Shown piece by piece: positions 11,226 to 38,965 of a stretch of DNA of 39,500 nucleotides (position 1 is its first letter; every line of letters begins with the position of its first letter). The notes below the pieces were generated by a model, which searched no databases, was not told the origin of the DNA, and saw only the letters and a program-made list of their open reading frames with translations. The stretch covers positions 1 to 39,500 of the forward strand of contig JAEEXG010000020.1 in the NCBI GenBank assembly GCA_016291405.1, written 5' to 3'. The stretch comes from Lachnospiraceae bacterium. Its GTDB lineage: Bacteria > Bacillota > Clostridia > Lachnospirales > Lachnospiraceae. Made by a program: the position numbers and the translations under genes.

Positions 11226-11238
11226 AAAGGAGTCATAA

Positions 11239-20398: not shown

Positions 20399-20443
20399 AC
20401 TGTTTTTAAATCTATCTTATAATGTGACAGAGGTAGATTGTGT

Positions 20444-22195: not shown

Positions 22196-22220
22196 AAGCA
22201 AGGCGTTATGCCTTGCTTTT
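22194..22220. terminator. Bidirectional terminator between kinase and regulator
   Basis: An 11-bp perfect stem AAAAGCAAGGC/GCCTTGCTTTT with loop GTTAT reads as A-run, GC stem, T-run on both strands. It serves both convergent genes and overlaps the stop codon region of each. Confidence 0.9.
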
Positions 22221-23268: not shown

Positions 23269-23297
23269 ACTCACCTCTTAATAATCCCCGTAGCATG

Positions 23298-23306
23298 ATT
23301 ATAACA
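23298..23306 (-). promoter_or_regulatory. Extended -10 promoter of the response regulator
   Basis: On the minus strand TGTTATAAT gives a perfect TATAAT with the TGN extension, 30 bp upstream of the regulator start. A TTATCA 15 bp further upstream is a poor -35. Confidence 0.55.
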
Positions 23307-23443
23307 CCGTACTTATTTTGATAATAGGTAAATTTGACTTATATGTATTTAACATATTTTTTTCCAAGTTGAGCATACTTTTGTTCATTTGTTACTAGGG
23401 GTATATGGGATAAGATTTAATCAACAAAAACGAGGTGAGGGTT

Positions 23444-24400
23444 ATGGCAAAAAACACGACGGGCGTTAAAAAGCCTACGTTTAAAAAGACAATGAAAGAA
23501 GTAGCGCGCTTTAAAGGCGTTTATCTGATTATGCTTCCTGCAATTATCTGGTACATATTATTTTCGTATGTGCCGATGGCGGGATTATCATTGGCGTTTA
23601 AATCCTATAAGGCCAAGCTTGGCATTTGGGGAAGTCCGTTTACCGGTTTTTCACATTTCGAAAAACTCTTTCAAGATCCGCGATTTATAGATTCTGTTAT
23701 CAGAACGCTCAAAATTAACGGCGGACGTTTAATACTTACATTTCCCTGCGCAATAATACTTGCTTTACTTTTAAACGAATTAAGAGTAGGAAGGTTAAAA
23801 AAGGTCCTCCAGGTTACATTTACCTTCCCACACTTTTTATCATGGGTAATAATTGCAAGCATTATTACAAACGTATTAAGCTTTGACGGAATTGTAAACT
23901 CGGCTATTGATTTGCTTGGCGGTGAGTACGTAAACTTCATCGGAAATGCAAAACTGTTTGTTCCACTGGTTTATATTACCGAAGTCTGGAAAGGAGCAGG
24001 CTGGAGCTCGATTATATATATGGCTGCGATAGCGGGTATAGACCAGGAGCAGTTCGAGGCGGCAGACATTGACGGAGCTTCAAGATGGGATAAAGTGTGG
24101 AGGATTACTCTTCCTTCTATTTTGCCCACGATTATCATAATGTTCATTCTTGCCGCAGGAAATGTAATGACAAAGGGCTTTGATCAGATATTCAACATGA
24201 ATAACGCGGCAGTACAGAAGGTATCGCAGACCCTTGATATGTACATTTACAATGTAACCTTTAATGCAAAGAAAACAGACTTTGGATATTCAACTGCAAT
24301 AAGTATGTTTAGATCTGTTGTTAATCTCATATTCTTGATTGCTGCAAATACTATCACCAAGAAACTTGGCGGTAACGGACTTATGGGAGGTAACGATTGA
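23444..24400 (+). CDS. Carbohydrate ABC transporter permease 1 of importer 2 (LplB type)
   Basis: 318-residue membrane subunit. The N-terminal basic segment leads into GVYLIMLPAIIWYILFSYVP and MAGLSLAFKSYKAKLGIWGS. The coupling loop QFEAADIDGASRWDKVWRIT lies near residue 205. These features match LplB-type CUT1 permeases, and it is an orthologue-like counterpart of the permease at 2904. The ATG at 23444 follows GAGGTGAGG; the GTG at 23435 lies within that site. The stop overlaps the next gene start by one base (TGATG). The adjacent YesM/AraC pair probably controls it. Confidence 0.92.
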   Translation: MAKNTTGVKKPTFKKTMKEVARFKGVYLIMLPAIIWYILFSYVPMAGLSLAFKSYKAKLGIWGSPFTGFSHFEKLFQDPRFIDSVIRTLKINGGRLILTFPCAIILALLLNELRVGRLKKVLQVTFTFPHFLSWVIIASIITNVLSFDGIVNSAIDLLGGEYVNFIGNAKLFVPLVYITEVWKGAGWSSIIYMAAIAGIDQEQFEAADIDGASRWDKVWRITLPSILPTIIIMFILAAGNVMTKGFDQIFNMNNAAVQKVSQTLDMYIYNVTFNAKKTDFGYSTAISMFRSVVNLIFLIAANTITKKLGGNGLMGGND

Positions 24401-25281
24401 TGGGTAAACATAAGAAAAATTACAAGATGCGATTTCAATGGCCCGATGCGATAATGTTAGCCGTTTTGGTGGTGCTGGCGCTTTTAATCGTACTTCCGTT
24501 TCTAAATGTTATAGCAATTTCTTTTACTACACCAAAGGCTTATGCCGATACGCCGCTTCTTCTGTTCCCGAAAGTATTTACCTGGGAAAACTACGAGACG
24601 CTTTTCCAGGACGGACGAATACTGATAGGATACAGAACATCGGGTAAATTTTTGTTAATGGCAATGCCCATGAACATGTTCTTAACTACCACGATAGCAT
24701 ATGGCTTATCAAGATCAGGGTATCCGGGAAGAAGATTCTTGCTTAAGTTTGTGGTTTTTACCATGTTATTTTCGGGCGGTATAGTTCCTTTGTATTTAAC
24801 CATTAAGTCATATGGACTTATAGGTTCTATGTGGGGGGTTGCATTAAGCGAAGGAATCAATACATTCTACATGATTATAATGTTAAATTTCTTTCAGTCA
24901 TTGCCTGAATCACTTGTAGAATCGGCAAAACTTGACGGGGCAGGGGAATATAAAATTCTATGGAAGATTGTGCTGCCACTATCAAAGCCTGTTATATCGA
25001 CTGTTTTTCTCTACTATTTAGTAGACAGATGGAACGAATGGTACAACGCAATGATAATGGTGAGAGACACTCAGAACACTCCGCTTCAGCTTGTTCTCAG
25101 AAATATAGTGTTGGATTCGCAGAACTTAGATAACATCATGACCGAATCCGTTGAGATATTTACTTTTAGCGCCGGTATCAAGATGGGGGCGGTTGTGGTT
25201 ACGGTAATTCCTGTAATGTGCATTTATCCTTTTTTGCAGAAATACTTTACTAAAGGAATTATGCTTGGAGCGGTTAAATAA
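24400..25281 (+). CDS. Carbohydrate ABC transporter permease 2 of importer 2 (LplC type)
   Basis: 293-residue membrane subunit with six membrane segments. ISFTTPKAYADTPLLLFPKV, the coupling loop LVESAKLDGAGEYKILWKIV and the closing YPFLQKYFTKGIMLGAVK identify the LplC group. The start ATG overlaps the stop of the preceding permease and uses GGGAGG at 24385-24390; a TTG three bases earlier is not needed. It works with the 23444 permease and the 25335 lipoprotein. No ATPase gene is present. Confidence 0.92.
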   Translation: MGKHKKNYKMRFQWPDAIMLAVLVVLALLIVLPFLNVIAISFTTPKAYADTPLLLFPKVFTWENYETLFQDGRILIGYRTSGKFLLMAMPMNMFLTTTIAYGLSRSGYPGRRFLLKFVVFTMLFSGGIVPLYLTIKSYGLIGSMWGVALSEGINTFYMIIMLNFFQSLPESLVESAKLDGAGEYKILWKIVLPLSKPVISTVFLYYLVDRWNEWYNAMIMVRDTQNTPLQLVLRNIVLDSQNLDNIMTESVEIFTFSAGIKMGAVVVTVIPVMCIYPFLQKYFTKGIMLGAVK

Positions 25282-25334
25282 AGTGATATTTTCATCACGG
25301 TGATGATAATATATATGATAAAGAGGAGGTTATT

Positions 25335-26999
25335 ATGGAAAAACTATTTAAGAAGTCGATTGCACTGGTTTTGGCATCGATAATGGCTCTTTCAATGGCG
25401 GCATGCGGAGATAAGGCAGAAACCAAACCTGCAGTTTCGCAAAAGGAAGAGACTGTTGGAACTGCCGAGACAAACGAAGGGGAAGCAACGGCCGAAGCAA
25501 CAGTTGAGGAGAAGGACTATAGCGAGCATTATACTTACAGCTACGCAAGTACTCAGATTACTGAGTCTACAGACTATAACTCACCGGATGATGCTATGAC
25601 GCAATATTGGGAGCAAAAGTACAATTTTGATTGGGACATTATTTCCATTTCAAGTGATAAGTGGGACCAGACGGTTAATACTTGGGCTTATGCGGAAGAT
25701 CTTCCTGATGTAACAATCTTTGACTATAAGCATCCTCAGATGATGGACTGGGTAGATCAGGGACTTGTTTTTAAATTTCCCAAAGGTTGGCAGGAACGCT
25801 GGCCCAATGTAGCAAAGGTTCAGGAGTATGGTGGATTACAGCTTGCTTTTGAAGAACTTACGGGAGATACATACTTTCTTGCTCGTACCAGCTATGCAAC
25901 TAACCTTCCTTGTACACCCGGTATTAATCCTACAAACATGATGGTTTATATTCGTAAGGATTGGGCAGAAGCAGTAGGTATAGAAATAAAGGACTACTAT
26001 ACAATCGATGAAGTAATGGAATATGCAAGAAGAGTTAAAGAACAGGATCCGGGTAAGGTTGGTAAGGATTTGATTCCCATGGGGCTTTCTTCATCAAACT
26101 GTTACAGCGTTTTTGTTAGCTCTTGCAGTACATATACATCAAACAACTATTATCTTTATAGGGATGGCGATGATTTCAAGTGGGGTCTTGCGGATCCTGA
26201 AACCCTTGAAGGTTTAAAGATATGGAGACAGGCTTTTGATGAGGGACTTTTAAATAAGGAGTTTTATTCATATTCAGGCTCGGAAGATGTGGAAGATTTC
26301 TATGTACGTGGTGTATCCGGTCTCATGTGGTACCAGGGCGGTGCTCGCTATCAACAAGATGTAGCAAACCGCATGAGAGACAATTTGGGACTTGAATATG
26401 ATGATGTTGTTAAACAGATTTTCATAACAGCAAACGACGGAACCTATCATTCGGCCCCCCGCGGAAACTTCTGGGGTGTAATAATGTTTAATCCCGACAT
26501 TCCGATTGAGAAATGGGAACGATACATGGATATGCTTGATGAATCATGCTCACAGGAGGGTCAGGTATTAATCCGTATGGGATTTGAAGGAACAGACTGG
26601 GAAATGAAGGATGGAGAAATGGTTTCTTTACTTGAAGAAGGTAAGGATGCAAGAAGCAAATATCCTTCAATCTATCCTGTATATCATCAACTTTGCATGT
26701 TAAGTGATGACTTTGTTCTTATTAATCCAAATTATCCTAAAAAATACAGAGATTTAACAATCAAGATGTATAAGTTAAAAGAAGAGCTCGGAAAAGACGG
26801 GGGATGTCCGCCTATCGATTACGATATCTATCTTTACAGCTCAGACGCAACGGCTGCCTTGAGTTTTGAATATGAGAAGGAATTTGCGAACATTGTTGTA
26901 AACAACGGCGATGTGGAGACTGAATGGAAAAACTGGCTTGACAGCTGGGCATACTTAATGGATCCTGTTTTAAAGGAACTTAAAGACAATATAGATTAA
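25335..26999 (+). CDS. Carbohydrate-binding lipoprotein of importer 2
   Basis: 554-residue extracellular binding lipoprotein. The signal peptide ends in SMAAC with lipidated Cys24, followed by a Glu/Ala/Thr-rich tether (25-58). The long, Trp- and Tyr-rich body (YDFDWDI-like start, MMDWVDQGLVFKFPKGWQ, FWGVIMFNPDIPIEKWERYM) is typical of large oligosaccharide-binding proteins found with LplB/LplC permeases. The end ETEWKNWLDSWAYLMDPVLK is also usual for the group. AGAGGAGG precedes the start. The exact sugar is unknown; size and context favour an oligosaccharide. Confidence 0.9.
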   Translation: MEKLFKKSIALVLASIMALSMAACGDKAETKPAVSQKEETVGTAETNEGEATAEATVEEKDYSEHYTYSYASTQITESTDYNSPDDAMTQYWEQKYNFDWDIISISSDKWDQTVNTWAYAEDLPDVTIFDYKHPQMMDWVDQGLVFKFPKGWQERWPNVAKVQEYGGLQLAFEELTGDTYFLARTSYATNLPCTPGINPTNMMVYIRKDWAEAVGIEIKDYYTIDEVMEYARRVKEQDPGKVGKDLIPMGLSSSNCYSVFVSSCSTYTSNNYYLYRDGDDFKWGLADPETLEGLKIWRQAFDEGLLNKEFYSYSGSEDVEDFYVRGVSGLMWYQGGARYQQDVANRMRDNLGLEYDDVVKQIFITANDGTYHSAPRGNFWGVIMFNPDIPIEKWERYMDMLDESCSQEGQVLIRMGFEGTDWEMKDGEMVSLLEEGKDARSKYPSIYPVYHQLCMLSDDFVLINPNYPKKYRDLTIKMYKLKEELGKDGGCPPIDYDIYLYSSDATAALSFEYEKEFANIVVNNGDVETEWKNWLDSWAYLMDPVLKELKDNID

Positions 27000-27011
27000 A
27001 CAAACATAAGG

Positions 27012-27040
27012 GGCGGTGGAATCAAACCACCGCTTCTTTT
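27012..27040 (+). terminator. Terminator of the importer 2 operon
   Basis: A stem GCGGTGG/CCACCGC around AATCAAA is followed by TTCTTTT. The T-run is interrupted by one C. Confidence 0.8.
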
Positions 27041-27147
27041 GTGGACGAAATTTAAAGAGTGTGCTAGACTTGGTGAGTGCTAGATGATATGTTTTTGCTG
27101 ATGCACTCCGCAGGTGCTTAGGGCAAGACATATTTTGGAGGTTTGAT

Positions 27148-27912
27148 ATGACAGAAGATGAAATAAAGAAAGAATATCCTTACTTATATGAGACTCATAT
27201 GCATACATCGGAGGGCAGCAAGTGTGGAAAGTGCACAGCTGAAGAGATGGTACGGGCTTATAAAGAAGCAGGATATTCGGGTGTTTTTGTAACAGATCAT
27301 AACTGGGGAGGAAACACTGCAGCGGATAAAAGCCTTCCCTGGGAAGAATGGATAGACAGATTCTTTACAGGATACTTTAATGCTAAGGCCGAAGGGGATA
27401 AACTTAACTTCCCCGTTTTCTTAGGTTATGAAGCAACTCATGGTAAGGGCCATGATTTTTTGATTACGGGATTTTCAATTGAATGGATGAAGAAACACCC
27501 TGAATTAAAAACTGCCACGATTCCTGAACAGCTTGAATTAATTCATTCCGTAGGGGGACTTGTGATTCAGGCTCATCCTTACAGAAAGGCAAATTATATA
27601 GATGAAGTACTTTCCTTTGAAAAGTATGTTGACGGAATAGAAATGTTTAATGCTTCTCACAAAGGGACCTACGAGGATGGAAGCAGTGAAGAAGAATGGA
27701 ATTTAAAGGCTGTTAAACTTGCAAGAGACAATAATCTTCCCGGAACCGCCGGTTCAGATCAGCATAACACCGATCTTTTTGGCGGAGGCATGGCTTTTAA
27801 GACTCCTATTAAAGATGAAAAAGATTACATTCAAAGAATTAAAAATGATGAAGACAGAGTGCTCACAGACGGAGTACATTGGTATGATAAATTAGGAAAT
27901 TTAATAGTTTAG
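27148..27912 (+). CDS. PHP-domain metal-dependent phosphoesterase
   Basis: 254-residue cytoplasmic enzyme of the PHP superfamily, which hydrolyses phosphate esters with two or three bound metals. The four family motifs are present: ETHMHTSEG (His17, His19), VTDHNW (Asp50, His51), IQAHPYR and GSDQHN, plus GYEATHGKGHD with the bridging Glu. The ribosome site is TGGAGG. It sits alone between two terminators, downstream of the sugar importer, so it may process an imported or signalling phospho-compound; the substrate cannot be told. The 148-bp gap before it holds a terminator and two copies of GTGCTAGA but no clear promoter. Confidence 0.88.
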   Translation: MTEDEIKKEYPYLYETHMHTSEGSKCGKCTAEEMVRAYKEAGYSGVFVTDHNWGGNTAADKSLPWEEWIDRFFTGYFNAKAEGDKLNFPVFLGYEATHGKGHDFLITGFSIEWMKKHPELKTATIPEQLELIHSVGGLVIQAHPYRKANYIDEVLSFEKYVDGIEMFNASHKGTYEDGSSEEEWNLKAVKLARDNNLPGTAGSDQHNTDLFGGGMAFKTPIKDEKDYIQRIKNDEDRVLTDGVHWYDKLGNLIV

Positions 27913-28112: not shown

Positions 28113-29636
28113 ATGGTAGTTCAGCACAACCTTACAGCAATGAATTCAAATCGTATGCTTGGTATCACCACAAAGACCCAGGCTAAGAGCACAGAAAAAC
28201 TTTCATCAGGTTATAAAATCAACCGTGCAGCAGATGATGCAGCAGGATTATCAATCAGTGAAAAAATGCGTAAGCAGATTAGAGGCTTATCACAGGCTTC
28301 CTTAAATGCACAGGACGGTATTTCAGCAGTACAGACAGCTGAAGGTGCATTAAATGAAGTTCAGGATATGCTTCAGAGAATGAACGAACTTGCAGTTAAA
28401 GCAGCAAACGGAACAAACTCTACAGACGACCGTTCATACATCCAGAACGAAATTGACCAGTTATCAACAGAAATCGACCGTGTAGCAGAAACCACAAAGT
28501 TCAATGAATCATACTTACTTAAGGGTGATAAGAACAAGGCTCGCGGATACAGCATGTCATATAACAAGTTAGCTTCAGCGACAGCTCCTGCAACAGCTAC
28601 ATTTGTAAAGGATTCAGCTACAAGCCTCTATGTTGGCGGAGATGCAGCTACAGGCGCTAAGATAACAGTTGATGCAGCTACAAACTGCTCTGACATGATT
28701 CAGAATGAAACAAACGACTTAATCAGATCATTCAGAGATCAGGGTATTAACATTACATTTACATCTTTATACGATGAAAACACTAAAGAAACATACAATA
28801 GCTACAACGTTGAACTTGCCGGTTCAGTAGCAGATAACTTTGTAGTAGAAGTTACTCAGCCTACAACAACAGCAACAAACGATGATTGTACAGCTACTAT
28901 CAATATTAAGGATACTTCAGGAAATATCATCATCCAGAACCTTACAATCGGTGGTGGTAAGTCCGCTACAGCTACCGAATCTTCAATTGTTAAGGCAGCT
29001 AAGTTATCGGCTACAGCAGTTACAGCTCATGAATCATCAGGAGCAGTTGCAGCATACTATGATAAGGCCGGCAACAAGGTATCAGCTAACTCTCTTAACA
29101 ACTACTTCAACGTAGACTCAACAGGAACAATCTCTGTAAAGGGCGATGCTCCTCAGGCATACGATGCAGTAGGTAACCTTGACAAGCTTGATGCTTCTAA
29201 TATTGCTACAAATAAAGATAAGGTTGCAGCATTACAGTTTAGCCTCCACGTAGGTGCAGATGCTACATCAAACAACCAGATTACTCTTTCAATCGAAGCA
29301 ATGTCAGCTAAGGGCCTTGGAGTTAACTTCATTAAAGTAGACGGCGATGATGATGCAAACGCATTATCAGCAATTGAAACCATTAAGCAGGCTATTCAGA
29401 AGGTATCAGAACAGAGATCCGCACTCGGTGCTATTCAGAATAGATTAGAGCACACCATCGCTAACTTAGACAACGTTGTTGAAAATACAACATCAGCTGA
29501 AAGCTCTATCCGTGATACAGATATGGCTACTCAGATGGTTCAGTACTCTAACAACAACATCCTTGCTCAGGCAGGTCAGGCAATGCTTGCTCAGGCTAAT
29601 CAGTCTAACCAGGGTGTTCTCTCATTACTTCAGTAA
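28113..29636 (+). CDS. fliC: Flagellin 2
   Basis: 507-residue filament subunit, colinear with flagellin 1. The first 160 residues and the last 110 are nearly identical to it; differences concentrate in the central domain (for example KDSATSLYVGGDAATGAKIT instead of the corresponding flagellin 1 segment) and at the end (SLLQ instead of SLLG). The Thr- and Ser-rich centre offers many possible O-glycosylation sites. The start follows AAGGAGG. It heads the transcript that runs into the glycosyltransferase operon, separated from it by 88 bp with a hairpin whose T-run is weak. Confidence 0.96.
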   Translation: MVVQHNLTAMNSNRMLGITTKTQAKSTEKLSSGYKINRAADDAAGLSISEKMRKQIRGLSQASLNAQDGISAVQTAEGALNEVQDMLQRMNELAVKAANGTNSTDDRSYIQNEIDQLSTEIDRVAETTKFNESYLLKGDKNKARGYSMSYNKLASATAPATATFVKDSATSLYVGGDAATGAKITVDAATNCSDMIQNETNDLIRSFRDQGINITFTSLYDENTKETYNSYNVELAGSVADNFVVEVTQPTTTATNDDCTATINIKDTSGNIIIQNLTIGGGKSATATESSIVKAAKLSATAVTAHESSGAVAAYYDKAGNKVSANSLNNYFNVDSTGTISVKGDAPQAYDAVGNLDKLDASNIATNKDKVAALQFSLHVGADATSNNQITLSIEAMSAKGLGVNFIKVDGDDDANALSAIETIKQAIQKVSEQRSALGAIQNRLEHTIANLDNVVENTTSAESSIRDTDMATQMVQYSNNNILAQAGQAMLAQANQSNQGVLSLLQ

Positions 29637-29672
29637 TAGAAACAGTTAGTAAACAGCCATAGGACATTTTAG

Positions 29673-29700
29673 ACGGGGAGGGAGTTTTATCCCTCCCCGT
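29673..29700 (+). terminator. Strong hairpin with weak T-run after flagellin 2 (leaky terminator?)
   Basis: An 11-bp perfect stem ACGGGGAGGGA/TCCCTCCCCGT with loop GTTTTA is followed by TATTAAA, not a T-run. It may attenuate or protect the flagellin mRNA end while letting part of the transcription continue into 29725. Confidence 0.6.
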
Positions 29701-29724
29701 TATTAAATGTAAAGGGTGAAAATT

Positions 29725-30837
29725 ATGGGAATAAAAATAGCAGATTATTCAGAAACAAGATATATAACCGCAGACCTATCGGAAAAGGAAAAAGATTTCC
29801 CCTTAATCTGTGTGGGTAAAGGTACATATGCTTGCGATATAAAAGTAAATAATGCCTTGAATATTCTGGGGGCAAATCAGTGCTATAACTTTCAAATCGG
29901 AAATTATACATCCATCGGTTCAGAGGTGGAATTTATAATAGATCAAAACCATGATTACAAGTCGGTTTATCAGGGAGTTATAAGACCTTTCGGAACGGGA
30001 GAACGTTCAAAACAGGGTCTTGGACAGATGATGAGCCGAATCCATAGAAAGGGCCAGATAATAGTAGGCTCCGATGTATGGATTGGCGACAGAGTTACAA
30101 TTCTAGGCGGCGTAACAATCGGAAACGGAGCAGTAATTGCAGCAGGATCCGTAGTTACAAAAGACGTTCCTCCCTTTGCAATAGTAGGAGGAAATCCGGC
30201 GCAGGTCATTTCCTATAGATTTGACAGAGATACCTGCAATAAGCTTAATAAAATTCAGTGGTGGAACTACAGTGAAGATGATCTTATGTTTGCAAAAGAA
30301 GACCTTCAGGGAGATCCTAAAGAGTTTGCAAACAAGTATATAGACAGTGTTAAGTACTTTGAGAGAAAGAGTGGAGCATTTGTTCCATACATTACTGACA
30401 GAACTGTTCCAAGATACTTAACATTTATAGAATCAGACACCACGTATCCACTGTTTCCTTTTGCAATCGAAAGCTTTATGGAAAAATTTGTGGATGGCGG
30501 AGCTGAACTTATAGTTGCTTATTCAAGCGATGATAAGATTCAAAGTGAAGCGGCAATAAAATTAATAGACATTCTTAATGAAACCGTACCGGAAGACTTG
30601 ATTGTAAATGTGTGCGGCATAGAGACGGCTGATGAAGAAGCGGTATTTAGTGAAGCCGATTATTTCATTACCGGCCGTGATATGAGAAATCTAATAAGAA
30701 TGGATTATGCTTCTAAATATGGTGTAGGCGTTATATCCGGTGCGGATGTGCCTATCCAATTATCCAGATTGGAGAACTTATGGGACAAAAACAAATTCTT
30801 ATATTTCAATGGGACTCCATTGGAAAAGACGATGTAG
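29725..30837 (+). CDS. CatB-like hexapeptide O-acetyltransferase with an extra C-terminal domain
   Basis: 370 residues. Residues about 40-175 form a left-handed beta-helix acetyltransferase of the CatB/Vat type: [43 protein letters not shown] and [20 protein letters not shown], followed by the family's WWNYSEDDL. Such enzymes move acetyl groups from acetyl-CoA to sugars or antibiotics. The C-terminal about 160 residues are not part of that family. They end [20 protein letters not shown] and [11 protein letters not shown], reminiscent of the second half of a GT-B glycosyltransferase, but I cannot assign them. The ATG at 29725 follows AAAGGGTG; a GTG at 29716 is inside that site. The 3' end overlaps the next gene by 58 bp. 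A role in acetylating the flagellin glycan is inferred from position. Confidence 0.8.
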
Positions 30838-31976
30838 TCGAAGGCTTTAAGAAATTAGGATTTGCTTGTGACATCCATTATATAGGTTCCGGAAAAGAAG
30901 CCAGAAAAGAAATAGATGAAGACGTAGTTCGGGCAAGGCTTTTGGGCAAGAACTACGCCTTTTCTTTTTCCACTAATTATTTTTACAGTCTGGCTAAAGT
31001 ATGTAACGAACTTGGCGTACCTTACCTTTCCTGGTCTTATGATTCACCAATGAGAGTGGAACATGAAGACAAGCTTTCAATGGATACTAATCATGTTTTC
31101 TTTTTTGATAGTAAGGAAGCAGAGTATTACAAGATAAACTATGGATGCAAAAACGTTTATCACTTACCGTTAGCTGTTAATACAGACAGATTTGATAAGG
31201 TTTTAAAGGAAGAAGCGGATCCAAAGTATAAATCCGATGTTTCTTTTGTGGGAAGGCTTTATGACAGCACTTTCTCAAACGCCTTGTCACTACTCGATGA
31301 CTACAGAAGAGAATTTCTTTTAGGAATTACGGATGCCGCTCTTCGCACAAGAGACGCAGAGCATGTATACAGTATATGTAACCAAGGCTTTGTTGATTGG
31401 ATAGACAACAAGGCGTTTTGTGATGCTGTAAATGCGGATTTTGATGATGTTTCAACTACAGACAGAACTGCATACAGATTAGGAATTCAGCTTTGTAAGT
31501 ATTCAACCAACAAAGAAAGATTAATGCTTCTTTCTATGCTTGGTCCGCATTTTGATGTAAAGCTATACTCCGATACTTCAAGTGAGCTTTTAAAGGACGT
31601 AAAAGAATGTGGTACGGTTGAGTATGAAGGTGAATCACCCTTTGTCTTTAAATACTCAAAGATTAATTTAAACAGCACATATTTAAGTATCCGCTCGGGA
31701 ATTCCACTTAGATGCCTTGATATTATGGGGTGTGGCGGAGCACTCTTAAGTAACAGGCAAAAAGACTTTGAACTTGACTTTGAAGATAAAAAAAGCGTGC
31801 TTTTGTATAGCTCAATGGAAGAAGCTTTTGATAAATGTGAGTATTACGTAAGCCATGATTCAGAGAGGGAAAAACTTTCTGAAGCAGGTAAAAAAATCGT
31901 GCGGGATAAATACTCTTATGAGTATAAGCTAAAAGAGATGATTAAGATTGCAAACATGGAATATCTTTTAAAATAG
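30780..31976 (+). CDS. CgeB-family glycosyltransferase (DUF3880 plus glycosyl transferase group 1)
   Basis: 398-residue cytoplasmic GT-B type protein. The opening [20 protein letters not shown] with the later [12 protein letters not shown] and [20 protein letters not shown] with [10 protein letters not shown] is the CgeB/DUF3880 pattern. The C-terminal [20 protein letters not shown] and a helical tail starting at [18 protein letters not shown] match the glycosyl transferase group 1 half that holds the sugar-nucleotide site. CgeB proteins occur in spore-coat and flagellin glycosylation. The ATG at 30780 lies 58 bp inside the acetyltransferase gene with GGAG 5 bases upstream, so translation is coupled. 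Donor and acceptor are unknown. Confidence 0.82.
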
Positions 31977-31985
31977 GGAAAAAGA

Positions 31986-33017
31986 ATGAATATAGTTTTA
32001 ATAAATAAAGAAATAAAACTATTTGAATATGTGGCAAATGCGTTAATTGACCAAGGGGCAAATGTCTATGCTATAGACCCTCCGGAAGAAACCGGTAATC
32101 GCTACCTTGAAGAGATACTTATGATAAAAAAAGAAGCGGGAGTAGACTTGCTTCTTTCCTTTGATTACTATCCAAACATTTCCCTTGCGGCAGGGGCTTT
32201 GGGCGTTAAATATGCTTGCATAGTTACAGAAGATTTCGATGAAAAGCTTTTTGATAAGTCTGTATTAAACGCATGGAACTACATTTTTGTTTCTGATTCA
32301 ATGAAAGCTTCGAAACTTTTAAAACTTGGGCAAGCCAACGCATTTTTCTTACCTTTTCCATGTGCAGATTACGGCGAAAGAAAGATGTGCGCATTCACAA
32401 AGACTGATGAAAATACTAACGATGCGTTGTATAATATATTTAACGATTTATCGCAGAAAACCAAGGGCTATTTAGACGGATTCATGGCGGTAATGAGGCA
32501 GGATGGTAAGGTAAATACGATATTTAATAGTTTAAATGTCTTTGCAAGAAAAGAATTGGAAACTCTGGTTTCTTTTAACGAGGAAGCTTCTCTTGAATCT
32601 AAAGGAGACTACTTGGACAATGCTTTCCTTTTGCCTATACTCTCAGACCGTACCTATTCATTAATGAAAAACGTAATAATATACGATGAAATAGATTTAG
32701 AAACTCTTGAAAAGGGCGGAATAGTTGTTTCCATACCTGAGAGAACAGCAGGAACCGGAGCCTCTTTTAAAGAATGGCAGGCGATTTTTGAAGGTAAATT
32801 TTTGATTGCATCCTTAGTAACGGATTTTAGTGTTTTGGGAGACTCAAAGCCTGTAACCTATGCTGACAGGTTTGAACTTATAAGACAGATAAAATACTAT
32901 CTTGAGCATAAAAAAGAAAGAGAAGAATACGCATTAAAGGTGAAAGAAACTGCTCTTTCTTTAAACAACATAAAGACTTATTTAAGTTTCATAATCGAAA
33001 GGTTAAATAATGAATAA
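31986..33017 (+). CDS. Divergent CgeB-like protein, possible glycosyltransferase
   Basis: 343 residues, about 55 shorter than the preceding gene product and alike in overall plan: MNIVLINKEIKLFEYVANAL, LLSFDYYPNISLAAGALGVK with YACIV, WNYIFVSDSMKASKLLKLG and FFLPFPCADYG in the first half, YYLEHKKEREEYALKVKETA at the end. The core donor-site stretch that reads [12 protein letters not shown] in the neighbour is replaced by ASFKEWQAIFEGKFLIAS, so activity is uncertain. It may be a partner or scaffold for the other CgeB protein. Ribosome site AGGGAAAAAGA is weak. It starts 9 bp after the preceding gene and overlaps the next by 8 bp. Confidence 0.65.
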   Translation: MNIVLINKEIKLFEYVANALIDQGANVYAIDPPEETGNRYLEEILMIKKEAGVDLLLSFDYYPNISLAAGALGVKYACIVTEDFDEKLFDKSVLNAWNYIFVSDSMKASKLLKLGQANAFFLPFPCADYGERKMCAFTKTDENTNDALYNIFNDLSQKTKGYLDGFMAVMRQDGKVNTIFNSLNVFARKELETLVSFNEEASLESKGDYLDNAFLLPILSDRTYSLMKNVIIYDEIDLETLEKGGIVVSIPERTAGTGASFKEWQAIFEGKFLIASLVTDFSVLGDSKPVTYADRFELIRQIKYYLEHKKEREEYALKVKETALSLNNIKTYLSFIIERLNNE

Positions 33018-34050
33018 ACCTTTAGTTTCGATTTGCATAATAACAAAGAACGAAGAAAAGCATATAGGTGAGTGCCTAAAAGCCATTAAAAAAGCTGCGC
33101 CTGATGCGGAAATCGTGGTGGTTGATACAGGCTCCACGGATAAGACCGTTGAAATCGCAAAAGAGTATACGGATAAGGTTTTCTTCTTTGAATGGTGTGA
33201 TGATTTTTCTAAGGCGAAGAATTTTGCGGCAGATAAAGCATCCTGTGATTACATTGTTTCAATAGATGCGGATGAATATATCGAAAAGATAGATTTAAAT
33301 CAGATCGTAGATTTTTTGACTAAGCATCCCAATGCTACGGGAAGTATAAGGCTTGCCAATTTAATGAACACCGATGAAGGCGTATCAAAGTACTTTATCG
33401 AAGTGACAAGGATTTATGACAGACGCCATGTTCATTTTGAAGATAGGATTCATGAACAGTTAAAGCGCCTTGATAAAAAGAAATCTGAAGTAGCTCTTTT
33501 AGACGTAGAGGCTACCCATGTAGGGTACTTAATTTCCGGAGAAGAGCTTCTTTTAAAGAATAAAAGAAACATTAAACTTTTGGAAAAGGAACTAACCGAT
33601 AATCCAAATGATCCCTATCTTTTGTTTCAATTAGGGCAATCATTACTATCAATTGGGGAGGCAGAGAAAGCTTTTAACGCTTATTCCAAAGCCCTGGATC
33701 AAAACCCACCTCTTGATGCGCCCTACGTAGAGCCTCTGATTCTGGGATTTGGTGATGCAAGTCTTGCGGCAGAAAAGTTTAAGGAGGCTCTGAGACTTGA
33801 AGAATATTATGATGAAATGAGTCATATAGGCGACTATATGTACACACTTGGAAGAGCATACTTAATTAATGAACGGGGTGAAGATGCTTTGATGGCTTTT
33901 AAGTTGGCAACTGCTGCTAAGAAAGTTTATCTTCAAGGCATGAATGATTATTACCCGCTTTATGCTTTATCTGTAGTGTATGAAAATTTCGGGGAAACGG
34001 AACTTAGTAAACAATATGAGCAAGAAGCGCTTAAATACAAAAGAGGATGA
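33010..34050 (+). CDS. Family-2 glycosyltransferase with C-terminal TPR repeats, copy 1
   Basis: 346 residues. The N-terminal GT-A domain has VSICIITKNEEKHIGECLKA, VVVDTGSTDKT (36-46) and the metal-binding IDADEY (DxD at 86-88), then RIYDRRHVHFEDRIHEQL, which is characteristic of SunS-like GT2 enzymes. From about residue 200 two or three TPR-type helical repeats follow (PNDPYLLFQLGQSLLSIGEA, EKAFNAYSKAL, and MYTLGRAYLINERGEDALMA), suited to holding a protein substrate. Such GT2-TPR proteins modify peptides and proteins, so a direct role on flagellin is reasonable but inferred. It overlaps the preceding gene by 8 bp and is followed by a paralogue. Confidence 0.88.
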   Translation: MNKPLVSICIITKNEEKHIGECLKAIKKAAPDAEIVVVDTGSTDKTVEIAKEYTDKVFFFEWCDDFSKAKNFAADKASCDYIVSIDADEYIEKIDLNQIVDFLTKHPNATGSIRLANLMNTDEGVSKYFIEVTRIYDRRHVHFEDRIHEQLKRLDKKKSEVALLDVEATHVGYLISGEELLLKNKRNIKLLEKELTDNPNDPYLLFQLGQSLLSIGEAEKAFNAYSKALDQNPPLDAPYVEPLILGFGDASLAAEKFKEALRLEEYYDEMSHIGDYMYTLGRAYLINERGEDALMAFKLATAAKKVYLQGMNDYYPLYALSVVYENFGETELSKQYEQEALKYKRG

Positions 34051-34056
34051 GCCTAC

Positions 34057-35112
34057 ATGTCACAGCAGATTTCTGTTTGCATAATTGCTAAAAATGAAGA
34101 AAAGTACATAGAGACCTGCCTTCAGGCATTAAAGCCCTTTGATGTGGAAATTGTGGTAGTGGATACAGGTTCTACAGATAAAACTAAGGAAATTGCCGCA
34201 AAGTATACTGATTCTTTGTATGATTTTGAATGGGTAGGCGATTTTTCGGCTGCAAGAAACTATGCGGCTAAGATGGCAAAACATGATTACATTTTTGCTC
34301 TTGACTGTGATGAATTTATAGAAAAATTCAGTATATCCGACATTTGTAAAATACTTAAGAAAGAGCCTAACTCATCGCTGGCTATCAGCATTAACAATGT
34401 TGTTGGGTCGGGAAATTCAATTTCTAAGTTCTTTTCGGAAGCAGACAGAATATATGACAGAAGATTTGTGCATTTTGTAAACAGGATTCATGAGCAACTT
34501 GCTACTAAAGATTCAAACGCTAAAGTGCTTAGAAAAGTTATAAATACGTCTGTTTTGCATATGGGGTATTATTTAACTCCGGAAGAAAAGCTAAAAAAGA
34601 ATGAGCGTAACATAGAGCTTCTTTTAAAACAGATTGAAGAGATGCCCGATGACTGTTATTCATACTTCCAACTGGGCCAATCTTATGCCGAGATAAAAGA
34701 AAATGAAAAAGCGTACGAAGCCAGGAAAAAAGCTCTTTCTCTAAAGCCTCCGGTTTCTTTTGAATTTATGGATCAACTTCTTGTTGGGTATGCAAAAAGT
34801 GCACTTGATATGGGAAAATATGAGGATGCACTTTCGGTGCTTGACTATTATGATGACATGAAAAATGTCGCGGACTATATGTTTTACTTAGGCCAGGCAT
34901 ATTACGCAAACGGAAGGCTTGAAGAAGCATTAAAGACATTTGAACTTGCAACAAAATGTAAAATAGTGCACGCACAAGGAACGAACAGTTTCTTTCCTTA
35001 TAATGCCATGGCTCTTCTTTATGAAAAACTTGGCGAAAATGAGAAGGCGGTTATGTACAGTCAAATGGCTCAGGATGCACTTTCAAAAGCATATAATCTT
35101 GATAAGAAATAA
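34057..35112 (+). CDS. Family-2 glycosyltransferase with C-terminal TPR repeats, copy 2
   Basis: 351 residues, a tandem paralogue of the gene before it with the same architecture: ISVCIIAKNEEKYIETCLQA, VVVDTGSTDKTKEIA, LDCDEFIEKF (DxD variant DCD), RIYDRRFVHFVNRIHEQL, then TPR repeats (DDCYSYFQLGQSYAEIKENE, MFYLGQAYYANGRLEEALKT, MALLYEKLGENEKAVMYSQM). The two copies match along their whole length yet differ at many positions, so they probably add different sugars or act at different acceptor sites. It begins 6 bp after copy 1 with a weak AGAGGATGAG ribosome site. Confidence 0.88.
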   Translation: MSQQISVCIIAKNEEKYIETCLQALKPFDVEIVVVDTGSTDKTKEIAAKYTDSLYDFEWVGDFSAARNYAAKMAKHDYIFALDCDEFIEKFSISDICKILKKEPNSSLAISINNVVGSGNSISKFFSEADRIYDRRFVHFVNRIHEQLATKDSNAKVLRKVINTSVLHMGYYLTPEEKLKKNERNIELLLKQIEEMPDDCYSYFQLGQSYAEIKENEKAYEARKKALSLKPPVSFEFMDQLLVGYAKSALDMGKYEDALSVLDYYDDMKNVADYMFYLGQAYYANGRLEEALKTFELATKCKIVHAQGTNSFFPYNAMALLYEKLGENEKAVMYSQMAQDALSKAYNLDKK

Positions 35113-35125
35113 AATAGGGGTTTAG

Positions 35126-36469
35126 ATGCAAAAACCACAAAAAGAGTTTTTACTTAATCAACTGAATACTTTGAGCGAAAATCATGAGGTTATATGTGAC
35201 ACCTTGGCCGAAGAAGATTTAGAAAAGGGACTTAATACCCTTGTATCCTGTCAGGAAAAGGCAATTGCTCTTGGCGAAGTGATAGAAAAGTTTGAAGGTG
35301 AAGGCTGTCCTTCTATTAAAAAACTTGAAAACTATTGTGAGCTTCTTTATGACATTCACGTAGCTGTTTCTAACGGGAATTCACCTGATTTAGATGAAAT
35401 AAAAGGGAAACTTTCAAGCGCATATGAAGATATAAAAGTAAGCTTTGAAAATGATATTAAAGTAAAAAAAGAAGCTGTTTTTCTTCCTTACAAGGCTTCA
35501 ATGTGGGATGCTCTTGAAACTATTTGGAAAAAGTACGATGCAGACCCTGAATGGGATGCTTATGTTATTCCTATCCCTTATTTTGAATTAAATCCTGAAG
35601 GACAGGTTTCAAAGCGCGTTTACGAAGGAGCAAGTTTCCCAAAGGATGTGCCGGTAGTTTCTTTTAAGGAATACGACTTTGCTGCACGACGCCCCGATGA
35701 AATCTATATAATCAATCCCTATGATGACCGCGGATTTGTGACAACGGTAGATCCGTTTTTTTATACCACAAATCTTAAAAACTTTACGGATTGCCTTGTG
35801 TACGTGCCTTATTTTGTGCTTGACGAGCCTGTCTTAAACAACCTTTCTTATATGGAAAACTTAAAGGGCTTTGTCCTTCTTCCGGGTGTTACCAACTCAA
35901 ACAAAGTAATAGTGCAATCTGAGAAAATGCGTGAAGCATACATTAAGATTCTTGTCGATAAATTCGGTGAAAAATCCAAGGAAATCTGGGAAAAAAGAAT
36001 CTTTGGAACGGGCTCTCCCAAAATTGAAAAAATACTAAACGCAAAGATTACTGATTATGAGATTCCTGAGGATTGGGAAAAGAAGATAATAAAGCCTGAC
36101 GGCACAAGAAAGAAGATTGTTCTTTATAATACAAGTCTTGGGGCATTTTTAGATAACAGTGAGCTTATGATTAAAAAGATAGAAAGAGCCCTTGAAATAT
36201 TTAAAGAAAATAAAGATGAGATTACTCTTTTGTGGAGACCCCATCCTTTGCTTATTTCTACAATTTCTTCTATGCGTCCGGAACTTTTGGATGATTATAT
36301 GAAGATTGTAAACAAGTATAAAGCCGATGACTTTGGAATATACGATGAATCCCCTGATATGGACAGAGCGCTTGTCATAAGTGATGCGTATTACGGAGAC
36401 CAAAGCAGCTTAGTGGTTTTATACGAAAAGATTAATAAGCCTATTATGATACAGAACGTTTTTGTATAA
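35126..36469 (+). CDS. CDP-polyol phosphotransferase-like protein (CDP-glycerol glycerophosphotransferase-like fold)
   Basis: 447 residues. The N-terminal about 115 are helical and charged. The rest looks like a GT-B enzyme related to the CDP-glycerol glycerophosphotransferase (TagB/TagF/TarL) group: FLPYKASMWDALETIWKKYD, VIPIPYFELN, then GTGSPKIEKIL, a Rossmann strand KKIVLYNTSLG, the histidine motif TLLWRPHPLL and the acceptor-end ISDAYYGDQSSLVVLYEKIN, comparable to the RPHP and DYSS motifs of that family. If so, it moves a polyol phosphate from a CDP-linked donor. The three following genes look able to make such a donor, which supports the call. The match is remote, so a plain glycosyltransferase is the alternative. 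Confidence 0.6.
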   Translation: MQKPQKEFLLNQLNTLSENHEVICDTLAEEDLEKGLNTLVSCQEKAIALGEVIEKFEGEGCPSIKKLENYCELLYDIHVAVSNGNSPDLDEIKGKLSSAYEDIKVSFENDIKVKKEAVFLPYKASMWDALETIWKKYDADPEWDAYVIPIPYFELNPEGQVSKRVYEGASFPKDVPVVSFKEYDFAARRPDEIYIINPYDDRGFVTTVDPFFYTTNLKNFTDCLVYVPYFVLDEPVLNNLSYMENLKGFVLLPGVTNSNKVIVQSEKMREAYIKILVDKFGEKSKEIWEKRIFGTGSPKIEKILNAKITDYEIPEDWEKKIIKPDGTRKKIVLYNTSLGAFLDNSELMIKKIERALEIFKENKDEITLLWRPHPLLISTISSMRPELLDDYMKIVNKYKADDFGIYDESPDMDRALVISDAYYGDQSSLVVLYEKINKPIMIQNVFV

Positions 36470-36494
36470 GGAAAATCTTTTGGAGGGTATTTTT

Positions 36495-37160
36495 ATGGAA
36501 TACTTTGAACTTAATGCTTCGATGATGTGTGCCGATTATGGACACTTGGAAGATGAAGTCAGAAGACTTGACGATGCGGGAATAGATTCTTTTCACATCG
36601 ACATAATGGATGGTCGATATGTGCCAAACTTCGCAATGTCTTTAAATGATATGGCTTATATTGCAAAAGCAACAAAGACTCCACTTGATGTTCATCTTAT
36701 GATTGAGCATCCAAATACCCACATTGAATTGTTTTTAGAAAAGCTTCGCCCGGGTGATACAGTTTATATTCATCCCGAAGCTGAGTATCATCCTTCAACC
36801 ACGCTTCAAAAGATAATAGACGCTAAAATGATTCCCGGCATAGCAATCAACCCCGGCACCAGCGTTGAAACTGTAATGGAGATGCTTCAGATTGTAAAGA
36901 AGGTGCTTGTCATGAGCGTAAATCCCGGTAATGCAGGCCAGATGTATCTTCCTTACGTTAGCAAAAAGTACGATAAGATTCTTCCTTTGCAAAAAAAGTG
37001 CGGCTTCGACGTTTACTGGGACGGAGCTTGTGGAGCGGATAAAATCAAAGAATTTGTTCCAAAGGGCGTTAAAGGATTTGTTATTGGTACCACCCTTTTG
37101 TTTGGAAAGACTGATAATTATAAAGAAACCATTGCAAATATTCGTAACATGAAATTCTAG
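36495..37160 (+). CDS. Ribulose-phosphate 3-epimerase family protein
   Basis: 221-residue TIM-barrel enzyme that changes the C3 configuration of a ketose phosphate. The four metal/catalytic residues are in place: His34 and Asp36 in SFHIDIMDGRYVPN, His67 in LDVHLMIEHP and Asp176 in VYWDGACG. The loop VLVMSVNPGNAGQMYLP replaces the canonical VNPGFGGQ, and WDGACG replaces VDGG, so it is a divergent member and may use a different pentulose or hexulose phosphate, such as the allulose-6-phosphate group. The ATG at 36495 follows GGAGGG; an in-frame ATG at 36462 lies inside the previous gene. Placement before a cytidylyltransferase and a polyol dehydrogenase suggests supply of a special precursor rather than central metabolism. 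Confidence 0.85.
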   Translation: MEYFELNASMMCADYGHLEDEVRRLDDAGIDSFHIDIMDGRYVPNFAMSLNDMAYIAKATKTPLDVHLMIEHPNTHIELFLEKLRPGDTVYIHPEAEYHPSTTLQKIIDAKMIPGIAINPGTSVETVMEMLQIVKKVLVMSVNPGNAGQMYLPYVSKKYDKILPLQKKCGFDVYWDGACGADKIKEFVPKGVKGFVIGTTLLFGKTDNYKETIANIRNMKF

Positions 37161-37168
37161 GAGGATGC

Positions 37169-37849
37169 ATGAACATCGCTGTTTTGCTATCCGGCGGAAA
37201 GGGATTGCGGCTTGGAGGAGATGTCCCCAAGCAATACATAACCGTAGCCGGAAAACCAATAATTTCATATGCGATAGATACACTTGTAAAAAGTGGGAAA
37301 TTTGGATTTATTCAGATTGTCTGTGAAAGAGAGTATGAACGCCTTATAAAGAATTGTATGCCAAAGGGCATAGACTATGGCTTTTCGGATCCCGGTGAAA
37401 ACAGGCAGTTGTCAATTCTTAATGCGTTAAGAGATGCCTCGGATCTTTGCGATTCAAAATCCCTTGTATTTATTCACGATGCCGCAAGGCCGTGCCTCTC
37501 TTCAAAAATGATAGACGGTTGTTTTGACGCAATTGCAGGCCATGACGGTGTTCTTCCTGTTCTTCCTATGAAGGATACGGTTTATGAATGCGATGAAAAG
37601 GGCAAAATTGTTTCTTTGTTAAAAAGGGAAAGAATTTTTGCAGGCCAGGCCCCGGAGCTGTTTCTTTTTAAAAAGTATCTTGAAGCAAACGAATCTTTTG
37701 GCAAAAAGAAACTGCTTGAAATCCATGGTTCAACAGAACCTGCAGTAATGTGCGGACTTGATGTGGTTACAATAGACGGAGATGAAGATAACTTTAAAAT
37801 AACCACTCCCATAGATCTTGAGAAGTACAAAAACTTGTTTAGAAAATAA
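37169..37849 (+). CDS. IspD/TarI-family cytidylyltransferase (probably CDP-polyol synthesis)
   Basis: 226-residue nucleotidyltransferase that joins CTP to a polyol phosphate. Signature GGKGLRLGGDVPKQY (9-23), FIHDAARPCLS, the substrate loop LPMKDTVYECDEKGKIVSLL, and ITTPIDLEKYK at the end are standard for IspD/TarI. IspD makes CDP-methylerythritol; TarI makes CDP-ribitol. The families are hard to separate by eye, but the adjacent reductase and epimerase and the downstream use by a phosphotransferase-like protein favour a TarI-like role. AGGAGG precedes the start, 8 bp after the epimerase. Confidence 0.85.
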   Translation: MNIAVLLSGGKGLRLGGDVPKQYITVAGKPIISYAIDTLVKSGKFGFIQIVCEREYERLIKNCMPKGIDYGFSDPGENRQLSILNALRDASDLCDSKSLVFIHDAARPCLSSKMIDGCFDAIAGHDGVLPVLPMKDTVYECDEKGKIVSLLKRERIFAGQAPELFLFKKYLEANESFGKKKLLEIHGSTEPAVMCGLDVVTIDGDEDNFKITTPIDLEKYKNLFRK

Positions 37850-37858
37850 TGGAGCAAA

Positions 37859-38908
37859 ATGAAAGCATACGTCCTTAAGGGAATCAATGAGCTTATAAAA
37901 ACTGAAGTTGAGAAACCTGTCATCGGAGCTGACGACGTTTTGGTAAAGGTGATGGCAGCAGGCATTTGCGGGTCTGACATTCCAAGAATATTTAAAACAG
38001 GTGCCCATGTGCATCCTCTCATTCCCGGCCACGAGTTTTCAGGAAAAGTGGTTGAATGCGGAGTAAATGCTAAGGAATGGGCTGACGCAAATGTCGGTAT
38101 ATTTCCGCTTCTTCCGTGCATGAAGTGTGATTGCTGTAAGGAAAAGCAGTATCAAATGTGCAAAAACTACTCATATTTGGGATCGCGTTGTGACGGAGGA
38201 TTCGCCGAGTATGTAAGGGTGCCCTCGTGGAACTTAATTAAATTGCCTGATAGTCTTTCTTTCGAAGAAGCTGCCATGCTTGAACCGCTTTCCGTAAGTG
38301 CCCATGCAGTAAGAAAAGCTGTTAAAGGTGTTAATAAAGAAGCCTTTGTTTGCGTGTGGGGACTTGGAACAATCGGCCTTATGTGCGTAAGCATTTTAAA
38401 GGCCATGGGATATAACAATATTATTGCTGTAGCAAAGAAAAAACGTCAGATTGAGCTTGCAAACAAGTGCGGAGTATCTGCAAGTTTTTGCGTAGATATA
38501 AATAGTGCGGATGCTTTTTCCGCAATTAGTGAACTAACTAATGGCAATGGCGCAGATGTTTCTTTTGAATGTGTCGGAAGACCTGAATCTGCCGAAGCAT
38601 GTGTTAAGATTTCCGCACCGGGAGCAAAGGTTATGTTTGTCGGAAATCCCGCGTCTGATATGAACTTTTCAAAAGATGTTTATTGGAATATCCTTCGCCA
38701 TGAGTTAACAATTTATGGCACATGGAATTCTTCCTTTACCCACGAGGATGACGATGATTGGCATTTTGTGACGGACTTGCTTAATAAAGGGAAAATTGAT
38801 AAGGATATTCTTATTTCCCATAAGCTTCCTTTTGATGAATTAGAGAAGGGACTTCACATTATGAGGGATAAGACAGAAGATTACACGAAAATAATTGTAA
38901 CTCCGTAA
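37859..38908 (+). CDS. Zinc-dependent polyol-phosphate dehydrogenase (GatD/TarJ-like)
   Basis: 349-residue medium-chain dehydrogenase. Catalytic zinc ligands Cys37, His58 and Glu59 lie in GICGSDIPRIFKTGAHVHPL and PGHEFSG. The structural zinc set is Cys87, Cys90, Cys93 and Cys101. The Rossmann motif is VWGLGTIGLMCVSILKAMGY, followed by AVAKKKRQIELA, where basic residues replace the acidic one of NAD-type enzymes and suggest NADPH. The ICGSDIPRIFK...GAH and LPC...GSRxDGGFAEY stretches are close to galactitol-1-phosphate dehydrogenase. Next to a TarI-like gene it most likely reduces a ketose phosphate to a polyol phosphate (ribitol 5-phosphate or a relative). It is the last gene of the operon. 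Confidence 0.87.
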   Translation: MKAYVLKGINELIKTEVEKPVIGADDVLVKVMAAGICGSDIPRIFKTGAHVHPLIPGHEFSGKVVECGVNAKEWADANVGIFPLLPCMKCDCCKEKQYQMCKNYSYLGSRCDGGFAEYVRVPSWNLIKLPDSLSFEEAAMLEPLSVSAHAVRKAVKGVNKEAFVCVWGLGTIGLMCVSILKAMGYNNIIAVAKKKRQIELANKCGVSASFCVDINSADAFSAISELTNGNGADVSFECVGRPESAEACVKISAPGAKVMFVGNPASDMNFSKDVYWNILRHELTIYGTWNSSFTHEDDDDWHFVTDLLNKGKIDKDILISHKLPFDELEKGLHIMRDKTEDYTKIIVTP

Positions 38909-38937: not shown

Positions 38938-38965
38938 AAGGTTTTCTTTTTACAGAAAACCTTTT
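38938..38965 (+). terminator. Terminator of the flagellin 2 / glycan operon
   Basis: A 10-bp stem AAGGTTTTCT/AGAAAACCTT with loop TTTTAC is followed by TTTTCTTT. Confidence 0.85.

Follow-up and report, generated by a model that had tools for sequence, protein, structure and literature searches.

Nine closely packed genes directly behind flagellin 2 of a Lachnospiraceae bacterium probably modify this flagellin, and we propose, at a probability of about 0.7, that they place a polyol phosphate, drawn from a polyol activated with cytidine diphosphate (CDP), on the flagellin glycan. The genes occupy positions 29725-38908, all on the plus strand, of a 39,500-nucleotide stretch of contig JAEEXG010000020.1 (the window; contig C78 of a 2.81-Mb draft genome, 99.45% complete). 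What we computed directly is the gene content, the presence of accessory paralogues, the conservation of a cassette of epimerase, IspD-type cytidylyltransferase and dehydrogenase genes, the recurrent proximity of this cassette to flagellar genes and, in our sample, its confinement to genomes that encode flagellin. If the proposed function is correct, the flagella of members of a major gut commensal family are covered with a sugar alcohol linked through phosphate. Flagellin, which the host immune system senses, would thereby gain negative charge and an epitope resembling the cell wall, and CDP-polyol chemistry would reach beyond wall polymers to include flagellin. The tie to flagella makes the system simple to approach genetically, and a well-defined question for enzymology is which ketose phosphate the epimerase acts on.

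The features of the locus are as follows.

28113..29636, plus strand: flagellin 2, the probable acceptor (PF00669 147 bits, PF00700 87 bits)
29672..29701, plus strand: strong hairpin (by folding) in the 79-nucleotide gap between flagellin 2 and the modification genes
29725..30837, plus strand: hexapeptide-repeat acetyltransferase-like protein with an extra C-terminal part (PF00132 42 bits)
30780..31976, plus strand: DUF3880 / GT-B-type glycosyltransferase-like protein (PF12996 70.8 bits; PF13524, Glyco_trans_1_2, 66.5 bits)
31986..33017, plus strand: weak glycosyltransferase-like protein (PF13524 18.5 bits, below the cut-off of 25)
33010..34050, plus strand: GT2 glycosyltransferase with TPR repeats (PF00535 87 bits; TPR matches all below their cut-offs)
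34057..35112, plus strand: second GT2 glycosyltransferase with TPR repeats (PF00535 73 bits; several TPR matches above cut-off)
35126..36469, plus strand: TagF-like polyol-phosphotransferase candidate (PF04464 23.0 bits, marginal against a cut-off of 22.1)
36495..37160, plus strand: RPE/AlsE-like 3-epimerase (PF00834, Ribul_P_3_epim, 154.7 bits)
37169..37849, plus strand: IspD/TarI-family cytidylyltransferase (PF01128 117.8 bits)
37859..38908, plus strand: GatD-like zinc dehydrogenase (4a2c, galactitol-1-phosphate 5-dehydrogenase, 197.6 bits)
38938..38963, plus strand: terminator-like hairpin behind the last gene (terminator scan)

By adjoining a flagellin gene and running in its direction, the modification genes form a putative flagellin glycosylation island. 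A first-pass annotation of this DNA had described nine packed genes behind flagellin 2, and all nine open reading frames (ORFs) are present and co-directional; the first starts, as annotated, at ATG 29725, preceded by AAAGGGTG, instead of at the mechanically called GTG 29716. The same annotation counted six acetyltransferase-, glycosyltransferase- or GT2-TPR-type genes, of which there are actually five (5 + 4 = 9), while its family assignments are borne out by Pfam and NCBIfam matches.

The catalytic steps, the acceptor and the nature of the polyol are all our inference. In the proposed scheme, a short O-glycan would be assembled on flagellin in the cytoplasm by the GT2-TPR proteins and the other glycosyltransferases, the TPR part serving to dock the substrate. 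A ketose phosphate would be epimerised at C3 by the epimerase and reduced by the GatD-like enzyme, and the resulting polyol phosphate would be converted to the CDP-polyol by the IspD/TarI-like enzyme. Finally, the TagF-like protein with its N-terminal bundle would transfer the polyol phosphate onto the glycan in the cytoplasm, releasing cytidine monophosphate. Such cytoplasmic transfer to a flagellin glycan is likely and would resemble the modification of Clostridioides difficile type A flagellin. Since the 35126 protein is the genome's sole PF04464 match (22.6 bits in the genome search) and LicD (PF04991) gave no match in this genome at E <= 0.1, no other TagF- or LicD-type consumer of the CDP-polyol is visible.

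Linkage of the cassette to flagellin across genomes

A model of the epimerase, run on 397 genomes of the family, drew a sharp boundary, with 47 genomes at E below 1e-110 and four at about 1e-75. All 47 carriers of the epimerase subfamily encode flagellin, compared with 212 of the 397 genomes overall (p = 1.1e-14, shared ancestry not removed), and the subfamily occurs in none of the 185 flagellin-negative family genomes sampled. With G002 and G007, which also have flagellin, the count rises to 49/49. LicD, a family widespread in surface-glycan loci, served as a control: flagellin is encoded in 139 of 244 LicD genomes (p = 0.08). Flagellin was found in two of four outgroup epimerase genomes, and a draw of 299 genomes of the phylum, which included the window's own genome and some family members, yielded one carrier outside the family, also with flagellins. 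A comparison of family carriers, 15/18 among flagellin-positive versus 0/14 among flagellin-negative genomes, is biased, the 18 having mostly been picked as carriers.

The association extends to the neighbourhood of the genes. The epimerase lies within 10 kb of a flagellin in at least 7 of 51 cases (0.77 expected) and within 25 kb in at least 11 of 51 (1.77 expected); these counts rest on the flagellin matches listed, the weakest left out, and the expectations ignore contig ends. The cassette itself is well conserved. Of the 51 epimerase loci fetched, 36 have IspD within 6 kb, 34 have the dehydrogenase within that distance and 31 have both; 21 have a TagF/LicD-like gene nearby, and 8 have a flagellar gene no more than 8.5 kb away (in three loci no epimerase ORF was called, an opposite ORF having been kept, and the locus centre was assumed). 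Among the best 80 of at least 589 named relatives, labelled mostly Lachnospiraceae, the corresponding numbers were 65, 56, 55, 22 and 11; six of these 80 loci repeat contigs of the 51-locus set. A homologue of the transferase was detected in 12 of 60 genomes, one being the window's own, which is counted in the genome draws, and the other eleven all have flagellin matches.

Homologous cassettes stand beside flagellar genes in other genomes, so the cassette is not confined to capsule or teichoic acid genes; such confinement had been named by the first-pass annotation as fatal to its proposal. Locus L024 is nearly identical to the window and ends at a contig edge. In L028 the order is flagellin, LicD/TagF, GT2, IspD, dehydrogenase, epimerase; in L112 it is fliD, fliS, FlgN, LicD/TagF, epimerase, IspD, dehydrogenase, flagellin, flagellin; and in L130 it is TagF, epimerase, IspD, dehydrogenase, flaG, fliD, fliS. 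Flagellin occurs together with the transferase in L019, L020 and L022, and further striking flagellar-linked cassettes were found in L124, L181, L182, L129 and L128. L026 has all four cassette genes, with no flagellar gene seen within its 20 kb.

Two features of the wider sample count against a flagellar role. Most cassettes are not adjacent to flagellin, and the neighbours of the non-adjacent ones, in a scan of 105 of 135 proteins for the 25 commonest families, include glycosyltransferases (GT2, 10), DUF4422, PF04464 (10), LicD (9) and capsule-synthesis families (Caps_synth, 5/105). Both would be expected if the CDP-polyol fed a wall polymer or capsule and the proximity to flagellin were incidental, as would the sister cassette of L118, whose genome (G309) gave no flagellin match. 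We nevertheless consider a wall or capsule function improbable, given the absence of the subfamily from flagellin-negative family genomes, its local enrichment near flagellins and the lack of a second PF04464 or any LicD match in the window's genome. In addition, two cassettes that lie more than 10 kb from flagellin (L207 and L208) sit in long islands running into a flagellar operon. Adjacency to flagellar genes is spread across the epimerase tree, requiring 17 changes for 19 of 127 rows (18.0 on average after shuffling), a pattern that would be expected of a subfamily serving flagella throughout. Resolution of the tree is weak, though, and no more than three changes are demanded by its well-supported branches.

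The sister cassettes L118 and L116 (genome G187) are 45-51% identical in the epimerase, 37-41% in IspD and 38-40% in the dehydrogenase. As G309 has no flagellin match, its sister cassette probably serves something else there. In L190, L193 and L206, from genomes titled Selenomonadaceae or of another family, the epimerase is 70-73% identical, IspD 24-26% and the dehydrogenase 36-39%, which suggests, from sequence identity, that the epimerase was transferred separately from its partners. A contig titled Alistipes sp. (L135, JAMPBI010000235.1), on which a typical Lachnospiraceae-type TagF-epimerase-IspD-dehydrogenase cassette was found, is probably mis-binned. Giant flagellins are encoded in or directly beside the cassette in L128 (10755-15896, 1713 residues, between epimerase and IspD) and in L167, the same contig as L069 (8752-14196, 1814 residues); further long flagellin open frames of 1472-1685 residues occur in the sampled genomes.

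Cassette enzymes and the identity of the polyol

The genome encodes a stronger IspD (G000:C91, 184.9 bits versus 117.2 for the 37169 copy) and a stronger RPE (250.6 versus 154.6 bits for the 36495 copy; Pfam, genome search). Because of these genes elsewhere, the IspD-like and RPE-like copies of the window are to be classed, by sequence comparison, as accessory. The case that 37169 is the only IspD of the genome and uses methylerythritol phosphate, in which the first-pass annotation would have had to be abandoned, does not hold in its first part. The 37169 protein also scores below the ispD equivalog cut-off (TIGR00453, 156 versus 181.3 bits), so that it qualifies as the genome's IspD neither by score nor as sole copy, and 36495 lies below the rpe equivalog cut-off (TIGR01163, 170.3 versus 212.6 bits). 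With such scores, and with a dehydrogenase conserved in the same cassette, it is most improbable that 37169 is a second cytidylyltransferase of the methylerythritol phosphate (MEP) route to isoprenoids and 36495 a redundant RPE, a view that family-level similarity alone would favour.

The best solved relatives of 37169 are 3f1c, labelled putative MEP cytidylyltransferase 2, and TarI 4jis, and its score against a ribitol-5-phosphate cytidylyltransferase model is 103 bits (cut-off 166). Its nucleotide-binding motifs GGKGLR, PKQY, HDAARP and KITT are intact. The best NCBIfam match of the 37859 dehydrogenase is galactitol-1-phosphate 5-dehydrogenase, at 229 bits against a cut-off of 550, too low for a GatD equivalog. 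Its zinc-ligand positions are conserved, and the acidic residue that follows the second Rossmann strand in E. coli GatD is missing (AKKKRQ). The missing acidic residue suggests the use of NADPH (reduced nicotinamide adenine dinucleotide phosphate) and hence reduction, and 37859 probably runs as an NADPH-dependent ketose-phosphate reductase.

The 36495 protein belongs to the RPE/AlsE superfamily: it matches PF00834 and conserves HIDIMD, DVHLM and WDG, which we take to be the catalytic His/Asp metal set of these enzymes. In sequence it stands roughly as near to E. coli AlsE as to E. coli Rpe, and the polyol may be a pentitol or a hexitol, which weighs against the scheme where a pentitol was assumed. 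Indeed, while the dedicated CDP-polyol pathway linked to flagellin that the first-pass annotation predicted has gained support, its pentitol is not established, given this equal closeness and the presence of a housekeeping RPE.

A CDP-hexitol is a serious alternative, because a second pentulose epimerase would be redundant beside the housekeeping RPE, which already links ribulose 5-phosphate and xylulose 5-phosphate. The system would be the same, with fructose 6-phosphate epimerised to another hexulose 6-phosphate, reduced and activated as a CDP-hexitol. Near the phosphate site the subfamily has DGAC and GT-x-LF, resembling the DGSC and GTSGLF of E. coli AlsE, unlike the DGGV and AGSAIF of Rpe; pairwise scores are slightly higher with AlsE (107 bits) than with the genome's own RPE (103) or E. 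coli Rpe (96); and the dehydrogenase most resembles an enzyme acting on a hexitol phosphate. In contrast, the NCBIfam AlsE score (141 bits) lies under the rpe score (170), both being below cut-off, the best solved RPE chains outscore AlsE (115 versus 101 bits), and the cytidylyltransferase is nearest to TarI-type enzymes. A tree with E. coli Rpe, AlsE and SgcE has long branches and does not settle the placement. We give a hexitol somewhat less than an even chance.

Candidate transferase and its helical bundle

The 35126 protein consists of an N-terminal four-helix bundle (about residues 1-113) and a TagF/TarL-like GT-B domain; a sequence search of solved structures returned no match for it at E <= 1. 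Many of its relatives are fused to a LicD domain. After removal of truncated C-termini, near-copies (same last 120 residues) and the L098/L189 duplicate, 54 distinct homologues were counted, 24 stand-alone and 30 LicD-fused. The RPHP motif, kept in 23 of the 24 stand-alone relatives, is lost in 28 of the 30 fused ones. In 35126 both WRPHPL (RPHP) and GDxSS are intact; we take RPHP and D-x-S-S to be catalytic motifs.

A point against transfer by 35126 is Ile196, which replaces a His kept by 22 of the 24 stand-alone relatives and presumably catalytic by analogy with the His of the TagF N-domain. Hence the first-pass proposal that this enzyme transfers the polyol phosphate keeps the PF04464 match and the intact motifs on its side and is weakened by the absent His. 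Conceivably, 35126 is catalytically dead, in which case the strain would make a CDP-polyol but leave its transfer to a different enzyme or lack the transfer altogether. The LicD-fused relatives, nearly all without RPHP, have also lost the His at position 196 (kept in 2 of the 24 that have a residue there), as would suit this idea, in addition to Ile196 and Asp209. The intact RPHP and GDxSS motifs, the open reading frames throughout the operon and the lack of a LicD or second PF04464 match that could take over speak against it, and we judge a dead transferase unlikely, though less so than a wall or capsule function.

The N-terminal bundle was recognised by profile in 23 of the 24 stand-alone and 19 of the 30 LicD-fused relatives. 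Its top Foldseek match was the flagellin chaperone FliS (6gow) at a nonsignificant E = 0.056, and a second look placed designed bundles in the top rows; aligned with FliS by hhalign, the bundle reached a probability of 0.2 of 100, so homology to FliS is not supported. We hypothesize that the bundle docks flagellin. It is tempting to speculate that a dedicated CDP-polyol pathway serves the flagella of flagellated Lachnospiraceae, with an epimerase family of its own and possibly an undescribed CDP-hexitol as product, and that these bacteria also have a transferase family that docks flagellin via a chaperone-like bundle and whose catalysis has shifted between TagF-type and LicD-type domains; as a whole, this extended picture is tentative, and we hold it to be roughly a one-in-three proposition.

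In L211 (6780-7277), a 165-residue protein consisting of the bundle alone is encoded between flagellin and GT2 genes and is a candidate flagellin-docking adaptor. Genome G302 (L209, L210, L098) contains repeated modules of flagellin, GT2/TPR and bundle-TagF genes; a single contig carries three copies, close to three flagellins.

Relation to known systems and genomic surroundings

The TarI/TarJ/TarL pathway makes CDP-ribitol for wall teichoic acid; it includes reduction of a ketose phosphate, and TarI/TarJ are not known to need an epimerase. The cytidylyltransferase family, the TagF/TarL-like fold and, as proposed here, the reduction step are shared with the window, whereas the target there is the wall and 35126 has its own N-terminal helical bundle. 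In humans, ISPD, fukutin and FKRP combine IspD-type CDP-ribitol synthesis with LicD-fold transferases acting on the glycoprotein dystroglycan; a LicD domain is present in the fused relatives of 35126, not in the window itself.

Closest in arrangement is the C. difficile type A system (CD0240-CD0244), modelled with CDP-threonine, a cytidylyltransferase, a TagF-like transferase and a core N-acetylglucosamine (PMC10714395; refined in PMC11833859); PA1088-PA1091 of P. aeruginosa are similar. As there, the window has a flagellin-linked glycosyltransferase, a cytidylyltransferase for a CDP donor and a TagF-like candidate for adding a phosphate-linked group to a core sugar. The donor differs, a CDP-polyol being indicated here in place of CDP-threonine, and the available text of those sources describes no ketose-phosphate epimerase or dehydrogenase. 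Ribitol-biosynthesis genes were predicted in 2016 in an enterobacterial flagellin glycosylation island (FGI type 12, two strains; PMC4875605), which likewise has pentose-alcohol genes within a flagellin island and for which the accessible part of the paper describes neither an epimerase nor a TagF/LicD transferase set. In Enterobacterales flag-2 loci, TagD, TagB and LtaS were read by their authors in 2020 as pointing to a teichoic-type flagellin glycan (PMC6993521). These loci, too, place teichoic-acid-type enzymes beside flagellins; unlike the ketose-derived polyol of the window, theirs is CDP-glycerol, in Gram-negative secondary flagella. In a Geobacillus island, a tagD gene was interpreted as possibly pointing to a derivative of a phospholipid (PMC5109656).

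Our literature search found no paper joining flagellin, glycosylation and CDP-ribitol, an absence that proves little, as most subscription papers lay outside the search; nor did it find the epimerase-IspD-dehydrogenase cassette, its TagF/LicD transferase family or their tie to flagellated Lachnospiraceae. As far as the sources at hand go, the novelty claimed in the first pass must be narrowed: the general idea had been predicted in the Enterobacterales ribitol and teichoic-type islands, and the cassette, the transferase family and the Lachnospiraceae tie are apparently new.

Upstream, a late flagellar run begins at 8570 with flgM, flgN, two flgK-like genes, flgL (a flagellin-N gene read as flgL), fliW, flaG, fliD, fliS, a second, flgN-like gene (weak, below cut-off) and flagellin 1. 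The tandem FlgK-like pair (9432-13107, 597 and 622 residues) recurs as a pattern in L104, L124 and L207. Between flagellin 1 and flagellin 2 (20438-27912) lie genes for a sensor kinase, an AraC-type response regulator on the opposite strand, ABC transporter components and a PHP-domain protein; the PHP gene adjoining flagellin 2 is kept in G016 (L024). Relatives of the 30780..31976 protein adjoin flagellins in several fetched loci.

A sigma-28-like site, TTAAG...GCCGATAT, was read by eye about 80-110 nucleotides upstream of the flagellin 2 start. A loose sigma-28 pattern matched 13 sites in the window (2.84 expected), three of which precede flgM (8495), flaG (15349) and flagellin 1 (18557), the others lying elsewhere. 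The hairpin behind flagellin 2 folds, with its flanks, at -27 kcal/mol (shuffles -10.2 +/- 2.9; z -5.7) and is absent from the terminator scan output of the stretch; it is possibly an attenuator or processing site. Terminator-like sites number 13 in the stretch against 8.2 expected, and the one at 38938-38963 is not evidence by itself. For the epimerase, ATG 36495 is a more likely start than the mechanically called TTG 36462, as two relatives start at that level.

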